Shown: in pieces, positions 6,459-64,000 of the stretch | Numbering within the stretch: position 1 is the first letter of the stretch | Layout: every line of letters begins with the position of its first letter | NCBI GenBank assembly: GCA_016125555.1 | Contig: WGLN01000003.1 | Span: 45,055 to 109,054 of the forward strand | Reading direction: 5' to 3' | Origin: Porphyrobacter sp. | GTDB taxonomy: Bacteria; Pseudomonadota; Alphaproteobacteria; Sphingomonadales; Sphingomonadaceae | Length of the DNA stretch: 64,000 nt | The notes under the pieces: generated by a model | Told to the model about the DNA's origin: nothing | The model's input: only the letters and a program-made list of their open reading frames with translations | Databases searched by the model: none | Program-made: the position numbers and the translations under genes

Positions 6459-7949
6459 TTAGCCGGTCATCAGCCGATAGGATAGCGCCTCGGCGATATG
6501 CACGCGGCCCACGCTGTCGGCCCCGGCGAGATCGGCGACGGTGCGCGCCACGCGCAGCATCCGCGTGTAGCCGCGCGCGGAGAGGCGCAGCTTCTCGGCG
6601 GCCTGCATCAGCAGCTTGCGTCCGGCTTCGTCCGGGGTGGCGTAACGTTCGAGGCCCTCGCCTTCCAACTCGGCATTGGAGCGCACGCCCCTCGTGGTCT
6701 GCCGGCTGCGCGCTGCCGCAACCCGCCGCGCCACCTCGGCGCTGCCTTCGGCAGGCGGGGGCAGCGTCATGTCCATCGCGCTCACCGCGCCAACATGGAC
6801 GTGGAGGTCGATGCGGTCGAGCAGCGGACCCGAAAGCCGCGCCTGGTAGTCCCCCACGCAGCGCGGATACTTGTTGCAGTTGCGCGCCGGGTCGCCGGCA
6901 TAGCCGCAGCGGCACGGGTTCATCGCCGCCACCAGCTGCACCCGCGCGGGGAAGGTGACGTGGGCATTGGCGCGCGCGACATCGACCTGCCCGGTCTCCA
7001 GCGGCTGGCGCAGCGAATCGAGCACCGGGCGCTGGAATTCGGGCAGCTCGTCGAGGAACAGCACGCCGAGATGCGCGAGGCTGACCTCGCCCGGACGCAC
7101 CTTGAGCCCGCCGCCCGTCAGCGCCGCCATGCTCGCCGAATGGTGCGGGGCGCGGAACGGGCGCGCGCGGCTGATCCGCCCCGCCTCCAATGTGCCCGCG
7201 ACAGATTGCACCATCGACACCTCGAGCGCCTCGGCGGGCGTGAGTTCGGGGAGGATCCCGGGCAGGCAGCTTGCCAGCAGGCTCTTGCCCGAACCGGGCG
7301 GGCCGACCATCAGCAGATTGTGCCCGCCGGCGGCGGCGATCTCGAGCGCGCGCTTGGCGGTCTCCTGCCCCTTGACCTGCCTGAGGTCGTTGCCCCCTGC
7401 GGCATCGACCACCGCGCCGCGTGGCGGCTCGTCGAGCACCAGGCTGCCCTTGAGGTGGCCGAGCAGGCTGACGAGATCGCGCGGGGCGAGCACCGGGACG
7501 CCGCTCGCCCAGCGCGCCTCCGGGCCCTGTTCGGCGGGGCAGATAAGGCCCGTGCCCGCAGCGCTGGCGTGGAGGGCTGCGATCAGCACGCCCGGGCTCG
7601 CCACCACTCGCCCGTCGAGCGCGAGTTCGCCCACCGCGATCCAGTCGCCGAGCTGTTCGGCATCGGTCACCCCCATCGCCGCCAGCAATGCGAGCGCGAT
7701 GGGCAGGTCGTAATGCGATCCGTCCTTGGGCAGGTCGGCGGGCGACAGGTTGACGGTGATCCGCTTGGGCGGGAGCGCCAGGCCCATTGCGGCGAGCGCC
7801 GACTGCACCCGCTCGCGGCTTTCGCTCACCGCCTTGTCGGGCAGGCCCACCACGGTGAAGCGCGGCATCCCGGGGGCGACCTGGCACTGCACCTCCACGC
7901 TGCGCGCCTCGAGCCCGAGATAGGCGACCGTCCTCACCAGCGCGACCAT
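6459..7949 (-). CDS. comM: YifB/ComM family Mg-chelatase-like AAA ATPase
   Basis: VEVQCQVAPGMPRFTVVGLPDKAVSESRERV, MVGPPGSGKSLLASCLPGILP, MNPCRCGYAGDP. Confidence 0.95.
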   Translation of the reverse strand: MVALVRTVAYLGLEARSVEVQCQVAPGMPRFTVVGLPDKAVSESRERVQSALAAMGLALPPKRITVNLSPADLPKDGSHYDLPIALALLAAMGVTDAEQLGDWIAVGELALDGRVVASPGVLIAALHASAAGTGLICPAEQGPEARWASGVPVLAPRDLVSLLGHLKGSLVLDEPPRGAVVDAAGGNDLRQVKGQETAKRALEIAAAGGHNLLMVGPPGSGKSLLASCLPGILPELTPAEALEVSMVQSVAGTLEAGRISRARPFRAPHHSASMAALTGGGLKVRPGEVSLAHLGVLFLDELPEFQRPVLDSLRQPLETGQVDVARANAHVTFPARVQLVAAMNPCRCGYAGDPARNCNKYPRCVGDYQARLSGPLLDRIDLHVHVGAVSAMDMTLPPPAEGSAEVARRVAAARSRQTTRGVRSNAELEGEGLERYATPDEAGRKLLMQAAEKLRLSARGYTRMLRVARTVADLAGADSVGRVHIAEALSYRLMTG

Positions 7950-8084
7950 GTGCTGCCCCCCGCGATCCTGCCGATCCCCCCGCCGTTTGTGCAGGGTTAA
8001 GAGAGGCTTGTCGAGCGCCTTGGGAGCGAGCCTAAGGGATTTTGAAAGGATAATTCTTGGCGATTTGGCAGGCACGCCGGGGCG

Positions 8085-9062
8085 ATGCTGCGCGCGATGG
8101 CCCGCGTGCTCGCCCTTCTTCTTGCCGCTCTCGCGCAGCTGCTGCCCGGCGCGCCGGCGCTTGCGCAGCCCGGGGCGCGGGTGATTTCGAGTGTCAGCTG
8201 GGTCGAGGAATGGGACCCGGCAAGCCGGCGCTGGGTGCGGGTCGATGACAGTCCCGCGACGATCCGTGACGCTGCATGGGAGACCACCACCAGCGTCACC
8301 CGCGAAGGGACGGCGATCGTCACGGAGACCGTCTCCCGCGAGCCGGTGCGGTTCATCGCGCGCCCGCAGCCGCCCGCTCGGCCGCCGCTTGCGAGCGGGG
8401 CGCGATATGGTCCCTTCCGCGTGCTCGACGAGCGCCGCGCGGCGCTGGTCGGCGCGACCGATGCCGCTTCGCCGGCAGCCTTCGCCGCAATGCTCGCCGC
8501 CCACCCGGGCCTGCAAGTGATCGAGTTCGTCGACGCTGCCGGCACCAGCAACGATCTCGCCAATCTCGCGGTCGGCAGGGCGATTCGCGCCGCCGGGCTC
8601 TCCACCCATGTTCCGGACGGCGGATCGGCGCGCTCCGGCGCGGTCGAGCTGTTCCTTGCCGGTGCGCACCGCAGCGCCGAACCGGGCGCGCTGTTCGCGG
8701 TGCATTCCTGGCGCGACGAGAGGGGGCGCGAGCCCGATGATTTCGCTCCCGATGCGCCCGAGAACCGGCTCTATCTCGATTACTATGCGGAAATGGGCAT
8801 GAGCGAGGGGGAGGCGCGGGCCTTCTACGACATGACCAATTCGGTATCGAACGCGGAGGCGCTGTGGCTCACGGGCAGCGACATGGCGCGCTGGATCGCG
8901 CCCGAGCGGTCGGCGCCGCGCAGCCGCGAAATGCCGGTGCCGGCCGCACCCTTGCGCCTCGCCGGGCTGGACGACAGGCTGCCGATCGCCTGCGTCGCGC
9001 CGCTGCCGTGGCCGCGCTTCGCCTATGCCGGGCTGCTTGACTCGCTCGCGGCTTTCCCATAA
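8085..9062 (+). CDS. Secreted ClpP/crotonase-fold-like protein (COG3904-like)
   Basis: Signal peptide ending [58 protein letters not shown]...FAVHSW resembles periplasmic ClpP-like proteins. Confidence 0.5.
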
Positions 9063-42030: not shown

Positions 42031-42121
42031 TGGCGGAGACGGAGGGATTCGAACCCTCGGTACCCTGATAGAGTACGGTTCCTTAGCAGGGAACTGGTTT
42101 CAGCCACTCACCCACGTCTCC
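42031..42121 (-). tRNA. tRNA-Ser (anticodon GCT)
   Basis: Minus strand GGAGACGTGGGTGAGTGGCTGAAACCAGTTCCCTGCTAAGGAACC...GAGGGTTCGAATCCCTCCGTCTCCGCCA; 7-bp acceptor stem, long variable arm, encoded CCA. Confidence 0.97.
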
Positions 42122-44462: not shown

Positions 44463-45017
44463 ATGCTCGACCGCCAGCCGGTGCTCGCGGACGAGCGCCT
44501 GCTTCTGCGGCCGCTCGCCGCCGACGATTGGGACGCGCTCTTCGCGGTCGCATCCGATCCGCTGATCTGGGAACAGCACCCGGCGCACGACCGCTGGCGC
44601 GAGGAGGTATTCCGCGCCTTTTTCGCCGATGCCCTCGCCAACAAGGGTGCGCTCGTGGCGATCGACCGGGCGAGCGGCGCGGTGATCGGCTCCTCGCGCT
44701 ATCAGGGGTTCGAGGAAGCAGGCGGCGGTTCGGTCGAGATCGGCTGGACCTTCCTTGCGCGCTCGCGCTGGGGCGGCACCTGGAACCATGCGATGAAGCG
44801 GCTGATGCTCGCCCACGCGCTGGCCAGCATCGCCGAGTGCCGGTTCCTGGTGGGGGAGGACAACCTGCGCTCGCGGCGCGCGCTCGAGAAAATCGGCGCA
44901 CGGCTCACCGACCGGCGCGAGGAGCGGATCATGGCGGGCGGGGTGGTCGTCCCGCACCTCACCTATGTCGTCACCGCCGATGATTTCGCGCAGGGGCCGC
45001 TCTGCGCGGGTGGCTGA
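44463..45017 (+). CDS. GNAT family N-acetyltransferase
   Basis: LADERLLLRPLAADDWDALF, SVEIGWTFLARSRWGGTWNHAMKRLMLAHAL, NLRSRRALEKIGAR. Confidence 0.92.
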   Translation: MLDRQPVLADERLLLRPLAADDWDALFAVASDPLIWEQHPAHDRWREEVFRAFFADALANKGALVAIDRASGAVIGSSRYQGFEEAGGGSVEIGWTFLARSRWGGTWNHAMKRLMLAHALASIAECRFLVGEDNLRSRRALEKIGARLTDRREERIMAGGVVVPHLTYVVTADDFAQGPLCAGG

Positions 45018-45095: not shown

Positions 45096-45105
45096 GTTAG
45101 CTAAC
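45096..45105. promoter_or_regulatory. Palindrome GTTAGCTAAC upstream of the curlin-like gene
   Basis: Perfect 10-bp palindrome in the 185-bp intergenic region. Confidence 0.3.
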
Positions 45106-45202
45106 AAACTGGAACGGCAGGCCCTTGAGTCGCGCTGTTCCCAACAACAAGGGGCGCTATCGCAAGCCTATCGCTCGCAAGAGCTAACCGGGGGGTTTCT
45201 TC

Positions 45203-46237
45203 GTGAAAAAACTGATGATTGCCGGCGCCTCGCTGCTGGCACTGGGGACGGCTGCGCCCGTACTGGCGCAGAGCAAGAGCACCGTTACGCAGACGGGCAA
45301 CCAGAACGATGCCGAGGTCGCCCAGACCGGCTCGGACAACGAATCCACGATCGAACAGACAAGCGACGGGGCGGAGGCCCACGTCCTGCAGTCCGGCACC
45401 GGCCAAAGCGCCACCATCAAGCAGTCCGCGGACTTCGTCGACACCACGGGTGCCGGGGCCGCGGTGGAGCAGGGCGGTTCGGACAATACCGCGACCATCG
45501 ACCAATCGGGCGGGCTGCTCCTCTACAGCTTCACCAGCGCACTCAACCCGGGGATGTTCGACGGCGAACTCGAGCTTGCCGAGGCAAAGCAATACGGCGA
45601 TCACAACAATGCCGATATCGATCAGGTGGGCGCCTCCAACCTCGGCCGGATCATCCAGAACGGCAGCTACAACTCGGGCACGCTCTACCAGGACGGCGAG
45701 AGCGGCGTCGCACGGATTCAACAGGGCGGCGCCTTCAATTTCGCGGATACCACCCAGAGCGGATCGAGCTTCGGCATCGCAGTGCTCGACACCTTGCAGT
45801 TCGGCGTGGGCAACTCGTCCACCGCTGTGCAGGACGGGCCCGGGGTGGCCGACGACTACCTGCCGTTCGGGGTTGTCTATCAGCAGGGGAACAACAACCT
45901 CTCCGACTTCACCCAGTCCGGAGAGGACGATTACGCCTGGGTCGAGCAGATCGGCGATCGCAACGAATCGAAGGTGCTCCAGAAGTCTGGCGGCGTCTCC
46001 AACGAGATCGACGTCAACCAGTACGGCGACGACGGCAAGTCCAGCGTCACGCAGGGCGGCACGGACAATTTCGCCAAGCTCGACCAGGACGGGACCTTCA
46101 ACGATTCGAAGATCGGCCAGGACGGCGTGCTCAACCAGGCATTCGTCACGCAGGGTGCAACGGGCAACACCTCGATGCTCGACCAGAGCGGGTCGGGCAA
46201 CCTCGCGACGGTCAACCAGAACGTGCCCGCACCCTGA
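45203..46237 (+). CDS. Curlin-repeat (CsgA/CsgB-like) secreted functional-amyloid-type protein
   Basis: Signal peptide MKKLMIAGASLLALGTAAPVLAQ; about 20 units of QxGxxNxAxVx in an 11-residue register, e.g. QTGNQNDAEVA QTGSDNESTIE ... QGGTDNFAKLD QDGTFNDSKIG QDGVLNQAFVT QGATGNTSMLD QSGSGNLATVN. Confidence 0.88.
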   Translation: MKKLMIAGASLLALGTAAPVLAQSKSTVTQTGNQNDAEVAQTGSDNESTIEQTSDGAEAHVLQSGTGQSATIKQSADFVDTTGAGAAVEQGGSDNTATIDQSGGLLLYSFTSALNPGMFDGELELAEAKQYGDHNNADIDQVGASNLGRIIQNGSYNSGTLYQDGESGVARIQQGGAFNFADTTQSGSSFGIAVLDTLQFGVGNSSTAVQDGPGVADDYLPFGVVYQQGNNNLSDFTQSGEDDYAWVEQIGDRNESKVLQKSGGVSNEIDVNQYGDDGKSSVTQGGTDNFAKLDQDGTFNDSKIGQDGVLNQAFVTQGATGNTSMLDQSGSGNLATVNQNVPAP

Positions 46238-46261: not shown

Positions 46262-46885
46262 TCAGTCCGCCGCCGCCAGCCCCTGCATCCGCTTCAGATA
46301 GCGCGCCAGAACGTCGATCTCGAGATTGACCGCGTCGCCCACCGACAGCATGCCCAAGGTGGTTACCTCGGCGGTGTGGGGGATGATGTTGAGCAGGAAG
46401 TCGCACATCCCGTCGGGCCGATCGCGCACGTCGTTGACGGTCAGCGACACGCCGTCGACCGTGATCGAGCCCTTTTCGGCGATGAACGGCGCAAGTTCCG
46501 CGCGGGCACGGATCGCCACCTTCCAGCTGCCGCCTTCCTGCCGCACCAGCACCACCTCGCCGATCGAATCGACATGGCCGGTGACGATATGCCCACCCAG
46601 CTCGTCGCCGAGCCGGAGCGAGGGTTCGAGATTGAGCCGGCGGCCCTCCTCCCACATGCCCGGCACGGTGCGGCTGACGGTTTCGCCCGAGACATCGACA
46701 TCGAACCACGCGTCGCCAGCGCTTCCGCCGCGCTCGACCACGGTGAGGCATACCCCCGAGCAGGCGATCGAGGCGCCGATCGCGATACGCGCCGGATCGA
46801 GCGGGGCGGTGATGCGCAGACGCAGGTCGCCACGCTGCGCGGCGCTCGCGATGGTGCCGATGGCGGTGACGATGCCGGTGAACAT
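46262..46885 (-). CDS. ribE: Riboflavin synthase
   Basis: MFTGIVTAIGTI, ACSGVCLTV, GGHIVTGHVDSIGEV, KGSITVDGVSLTVNDV. Confidence 0.96.
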   Translation of the reverse strand: MFTGIVTAIGTIASAAQRGDLRLRITAPLDPARIAIGASIACSGVCLTVVERGGSAGDAWFDVDVSGETVSRTVPGMWEEGRRLNLEPSLRLGDELGGHIVTGHVDSIGEVVLVRQEGGSWKVAIRARAELAPFIAEKGSITVDGVSLTVNDVRDRPDGMCDFLLNIIPHTAEVTTLGMLSVGDAVNLEIDVLARYLKRMQGLAAAD

Positions 46886-63289: not shown

Positions 63290-63524
63290 TTGGTTTTTGA
63301 TGAAGGGACATGTGGGCGACGGCGCCCGGTCCGGGGACCTCAAGGCTCCGGTAACCGGTTAACTCAAGCCGATCGCCACATCCGATCGCAGGCTCCACGC
63401 CTGCCCGGATGGCAAGCATGTTCATTCGTATCCATTACGTTTGACAGTGCAGGTATCGGCTCCTTGAAGCTCATGCCAGTGAGGTCGACGGGGTTATCCC
63501 CGTGCCTGATTGGTGTGTGACACA

Positions 63525-64000
<476 letters not shown>

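Follow-up and report, generated by a model that had tools for sequence, protein, structure and literature searches.

The window analyzed here, i.e., the whole 64-kb stretch of DNA, carries at 45203..46237 (+ strand) an open reading frame with a GTG start that encodes a 344-aa curlin-repeat protein (PF07012). This gene, hereafter the window gene, is preceded by a Shine-Dalgarno-like GGGGGG box (45190..45195, +), GGGG[A/G] being frequent upstream of ribE-linked curlin genes, and lies between a GNAT acetyltransferase gene on its left (44463..45017, +; PF13302) and the convergent riboflavin synthase gene ribE on its right (46262..46885, -; PF00677). Both neighbors are functionally unrelated to it and served as syntenic markers, and the window gene forms a transcription unit apart from them, with an upstream region of its own. 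The window also contains a tRNA gene (42034-42121, -) and the start of a 16S rRNA gene (63523-64000) that runs past its end.

Residues 1-22 of the protein (MKKLMIAGASLLALGTAAPVLA; 45203..45268, +) read by eye as a Sec-type signal peptide of the form found in other curlins of the genus, including those of the csg operon, and are directly followed by Gln. The mature protein enters the repeats almost at once, and an N22-type CsgG targeting segment is absent. Residues 30-339 (45290..46219, +) parse into 25 units starting with Gln, 18 of them exactly 11 aa long, and the protein contains 14 QxGxxN motifs, whereas 2000 shuffles of the mature sequence averaged 0.35 and never exceeded 3. The longer units comprise 16, 29, 14, 17, and 13 residues. 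According to the alignment, a long insertion (residues 101-129, QSGGLLLYSFTSALNPGMFDGELELAEAK; 45503..45589, +) includes the motif FxSxLNPxxFxGELxLAEA common to this protein and to that of another genome, G068, and residues 185-226 (45755..45880, +), where units of 14 and 17 residues interrupt the register, face equally irregular sequence in ribE-linked relatives. The C-terminal module (residues 227-340; 45881..46222, +; 158.7 bits with a module HMM) is conserved, ribE-linked curlins and some csg-operon curlins ending in it as well.

The Pfam model Curlin_rpt (PF07012) matches the protein over 10 stretches with 113.7 bits, far above its cut-off of 20.7, and the NCBIfam CsgB and CsgA equivalog models match it below their cut-offs (130.8 against 165 and 98.8 against 160, respectively). 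The best match by sequence among solved structures is PDB 8c50, a "curlin associated repeat-containing protein" that we take to be R15.5 of Pontibacter korlensis (E 9e-28, the best matched stretch covering residues 257-340 only). Single-sequence AlphaFold prediction yielded an all-beta model with 27 strands at a low pLDDT of 50 and, for the C-terminal part, a pLDDT of 37, and a Foldseek search returned no match under E 1e-3.

An earlier note, made from the sequence of the window alone, had described a secreted, amyloid-type curlin-repeat protein flanked by unrelated genes. This description is borne out by the curlin-repeat HMM search that it had proposed and by the families of the two neighbors, the amyloid-type call itself resting on sequence. 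Its 14 QxGxxN motifs were counted again exactly and its long insertions correspond to the longer units listed above, but its estimate of about 20 units fell short of the parse. The protein is indeed rich in Asp (9.3%), as the note had remarked, yet this can hardly be regarded as a special trait, the csg-operon curlins of the genus averaging 8.9%.

The csg operon and its promoter element

The window sits on contig C16 of a 3.07-Mb genome (G000; 20 contigs, 99.99% complete), which also carries a complete csg operon of the alphaproteobacterial type on contig C4. There, 3' of rplJ-rplL, csgF and csgG are followed by three major curlin genes (752, 521, and 373 aa), a CsgB-like gene (216 aa), an unknown gene (235 aa), and csgH. 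In profile searches of the genome, csgG scored 205.6 bits, csgF 105.8 bits, and csgH 56.5 bits (NF041112; cut-off 35). CsgE (PF10627) had no match anywhere in this genome, and csgE has been reported to be absent from Alphaproteobacteria (PMC3521004). The order csgF-csgG-(major curlins)-CsgB-like-unknown-csgH recurs in 36 of the 38 type VIII secretion system (T8SS) loci of the genus that were read over enough length; in the T8SS loci of G004 and G131, the locus search did not find the gene between the CsgB-like gene and csgH. The protein of ~235 aa encoded at this position in almost every csg operon of the genus looks secreted and belongs to no Pfam family (L009:7687-8394, -; homologues in L191-L204 and L215-L254). 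It represents a candidate curli assembly factor.

The region upstream of the window gene contains an element, GTTAGCTAAC...GAGTCGC (45096..45132, +), which pattern comparison revealed to be shared with the csgF promoter. csgF promoters of the clade to which the window genome belongs read CTTTAC...GTTAATAAC..CTAAC...GAGTCGC; upstream of the window gene, GTTAGCTAAC is found at -107 and GAGTCGC at -76, and upstream of csgF in the same genome, GCTAAC occurs at -103 and -93 and GAGTCG at -77. The 3.07-Mb genome contains the pattern GCTAACN{8,28}GAGTCG just twice, once at csgF and once at the window gene, but this pattern was composed after both promoters had been seen, and a reversed control pattern likewise has two matches in the genome. 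Within the window, CTAACN{5,30}GAGTCG is found once, at the window gene, against 0.18 expected. Across the 740 kb of DNA retrieved, TAAC.{5,30}GAGTCGC has nine matches. Five of these lie at csgF promoters, one at the window gene, two at curlin genes of flagellar clusters, and one at an unrelated site, control patterns of the same type giving 0 to 15 matches counted regardless of place. An nhmmer model of the csgF promoters of clade B did not find the promoter of the window gene. Taken together, the promoter sequences offer good but not conclusive evidence in favor of a single regulon.

Kinship and distribution of ribE-linked curlin genes

Curlin repeats are encoded in 46 of the 114 genomes of the genus, 42 of which also possess CsgF and a full-strength CsgG (~200 bits). 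Among the 41 curlin-positive genomes read around ribE, 16 (the window genome and 15 further species) have ribE-linked curlins, one or two genes bordered by EipA-AspAT-(GNAT) on one side and by the convergent ribE-ribD on the other; the remaining surroundings showed no curlin gene within the stretch read, a few of these stretches ending at contig ends. Fifteen of the 16 species with a ribE-linked curlin are T8SS-positive (csgF and csgG). In the tree of flanking proteins, curlins at the ribE site occur in 14 of the 16 species of one clade and, in another, in G000 and G068, most clade-B relatives having no curlin at this site. Such a pattern fits an old presence followed by losses, and transfer into the same site may be an alternative.

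When the window protein was compared by BLAST with about 100 curlins of the genus, the first 11 matches were all ribE-linked. The ribE-linked curlin of G068 ranked first (44% identity), followed by clade-A proteins of roughly 590-1100 aa (40-43%, mostly over the last ~320 residues), and the 752-aa curlin of the window genome's own operon ranked 24th. The irregular insertions of the window protein also align with those of its ribE-linked relatives. The ribE curlins of G000 and G068 are sisters (support 99/99), both on long branches. A recent origin of the window gene as a copy of the operon curlin of its genome was rejected, the AU test giving p = 0.0004 for a grouping with the 752-aa protein. 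A strictly one-to-one line of descent for the ribE-linked curlins as a whole also fared poorly: a single clade was weakly rejected (AU p = 0.013), so that some exchange of sequence with operon curlins is likely. The rejection could possibly reflect exchanged repeats or the long row of G101.

Several genomes of the genus provide natural comparisons. The operon of G020 (L193, contig C5) reads csgF-csgG-CsgB-like-unknown-csgH and is unique among the loci read in containing no major curlin; five other curlin genes are spread over the chromosome of this species, two at ribE and three elsewhere. It follows that the fiber of this species, if one is made, must come from the dispersed curlins, among them homologues of the window gene, and that location in the csg operon is not strictly defining for a curli subunit. 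Conversely, the complete genome G068 encodes neither csgG nor csgF and retains three intact-looking dispersed curlin genes (L154; L185:6247-7623, +; L186:5676-5999, -). One of the three, the sister gene to the window gene, is of the same short form, and the 752-aa operon curlin of the window genome finds its closest relative in the curlin at L185.

G083, G104, and G114 also have no csgG or csgF, and each has curlin sequence at one place, beside flagellar genes (motA/motB, flagellin): L187:6346-8019 (-) in G083, L188:7004-8656 (-) in G114, and L189:6908-7465 and 7555-8319 (+) in G104, whose gene is split in two frames. G109 likewise has a curlin gene beside flagellar genes (L246:2802-4223, +), with a similar TAAC...GAGTCG match. 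The csgF-type element is still present at the flagellar-cluster curlins of G083 and G114, which argues for operon loss rather than a separate system and would be expected of leftovers from a lost system.

Proposed role of the window gene

We consider the window gene to be an unlinked structural subunit of the ordinary curli (type VIII secretion) system of this bacterium, with a probability of roughly 0.8. This reading is based on the curlin repeats, the gene content of the genome, synteny, the near-restriction of ribE-linked curlins to T8SS-positive species, the G020 operon, and the promoter element. Against it stand the sister gene in G068, which has neither csgG nor csgF, the post hoc composition of the promoter pattern and the two matches of its reversed control, the miss by the clade-B HMM, the weak rejection of one ribE-linked clade, and the low confidence of the structural models. 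As a subunit, the window gene would be co-expressed with the csg operon via the common promoter element, and its product would reach the periplasm by Sec, be kept soluble there by CsgH, and be exported unfolded via the pore of CsgG and CsgF, whose genes lie on C4. Outside the cell, it would form a beta-solenoid in or alongside the fibers of the operon curlins, which would be nucleated by the CsgB-like subunit. We infer co-expression, CsgG export, CsgH chaperoning, amyloid formation, and co-assembly of the protein, export and assembly being modeled on the known curli pathway.

The earlier note had instead proposed an orphan, stand-alone amyloid using an unlinked or non-canonical secretion route, no csg gene being visible around it. 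The latter observation holds within the 64-kb window and fails genome-wide; with csgF, csgG, csgH, and four more curlin genes on C4, the protein is neither an orphan nor an amyloid standing alone in its genome. The route is unlinked in the literal sense, the gene lying outside any csg operon. The csg locus, the common promoter element, and the 15 of 16 T8SS-positive species leave both "stand-alone" and "non-canonical" unsupported. As a refutation, the note had also named a complete operon elsewhere that already includes this gene as a standard subunit. This applies only by half: a csg operon does exist, on C4, but the window gene, located between the GNAT gene and ribE on C16, is not part of it.

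A refinement of the subunit reading, compatible with it and which we advance tentatively, is that the protein is a T8SS client with its own role, i.e., a modifying, capping, or alternative-fiber subunit rather than a bulk component, expressed under partly different conditions from its separate promoter. The independent transcription unit and its upstream region, the irregular insertions and the C-terminal module that are conserved within its distinct subfamily, and the suggestion that extra curlin copies in additional operons are independently regulated and modulate fiber properties (Dueholm et al., 2012, PMC3521004) speak for such a specialization, but the promoter element common to csgF and the window gene argues for joint expression, and the dispersed curlins of G020 have to be bulk subunits. 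Decay is unlikely: the window gene would then be a shortened copy that fibers no longer need, as its 344 aa against roughly 590-1100 aa in the best-matching clade-A homologues, the long branches of G000 and G068, and the ribE sites without curlin in most clade-B relatives could suggest. Nevertheless, its reading frame is intact, as are its signal peptide, its ribosome-binding box, and its promoter element, its repeats are still regular, and the same short form is retained in G068.

It is very unlikely that the ribE-linked curlin is a T8SS-independent amyloid or adhesin that exits by another route or acts in the periplasm. G068, with the sister gene and two other curlins in the absence of csgG and csgF, the flagellar-cluster curlins of the csgG-less G083, G114, and G104, and the 2% of CsgA-bearing genomes that lack CsgG (Sleutel et al., 2023, PMC10192328) are compatible with this idea. 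Nonetheless, csgF and csgG accompany the ribE-linked gene in all but one of the 16 species, the csgG-less curlins of G083 and G114 retain the csgF-type promoter as leftovers would, and the curlin-positive genomes without csgG fall at scattered points of the tree, amid csg-positive ones. That the intact G068 gene would make the ribE-linked lineage a conserved amyloid independent of the CsgG pore is likewise highly improbable; if true, curlin-repeat proteins would have to leave the cell by some other route or to act in the periplasm. Finally, a two-gene cassette in which a curlin is anchored to peptidoglycan by an OmpA-domain protein, the window keeping the curlin alone, is barely credible. Beside the ribE-linked curlin of clade A, a secreted protein with an OmpA domain (PF00691) is encoded (L142:6123-7049, +; L139:6113-7105, +; L143:8485-9390, +), but its gene belongs to the core genome of the genus, being present as a single copy in 109 of the 114 genomes whether or not these carry curlins, and lies on contig C17 in the window genome. 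A general partnership was rejected on account of this core status, and the OmpA-domain protein is probably merely a neighbor of the ribE-linked curlins.

Comparison with known curli systems

Supernumerary curlins are already known, mostly in additional operons and rarely outside csg operons (PMC3521004, PMC10192328), and our literature search found no paper treating curli, csgA, and Sphingomonadales together. What is new here is a satellite curlin locus conserved in the genus beside ribE, together with a csg operon for which every major subunit is encoded elsewhere. If the subunit reading holds, the curli fibers of this genus are probably built from dispersed subunit genes, the operon of one species being devoid of major subunits, and counts of curlins restricted to csg operons miss subunits. 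Moreover, G020, without major subunits in its operon, and G068, G083, G104, and G114, without the pore, offer natural comparisons to determine which curli parts are needed.

Like CsgA and CsgB, the window protein has a Sec-like signal and tandem Gln/Asn/Gly repeats, and its genome encodes csgF and csgG. Unlike CsgA of E. coli, it is longer, has more repeats, and has no N22 spacer after its signal peptide, N22-like segments being the exception among curlins (PMC10192328). It also differs from the CsgA/CsgB systems in that its gene lies outside the csg operon, CsgE is absent, and CsgH takes the place of CsgC. A close parallel is provided by the alphaproteobacterial CsgH systems, in which csgC, csgD, and csgE are not expected (Dueholm et al., 2012, PMC3521004) and which share with the window genome csgF, csgG, csgH, and several dissimilar curlins per genome. 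Extra curlins in that survey were mainly found in additional curli operons, whereas here a single curlin gene occupies a housekeeping locus that is curlin-bearing across much of the genus. The R15.5 curlin of Pontibacter korlensis is, like the window protein, long and acidic, but has 20% Asp+Glu against 13% and is described as a regular solenoid (PMC10192328). Finally, the Sinorhizobium fredii curlin A0A249PTX6 is likewise alphaproteobacterial and encoded outside a Csg operon, and differs by its description as having a purely Ser/Thr core (cited in PMC10192328).
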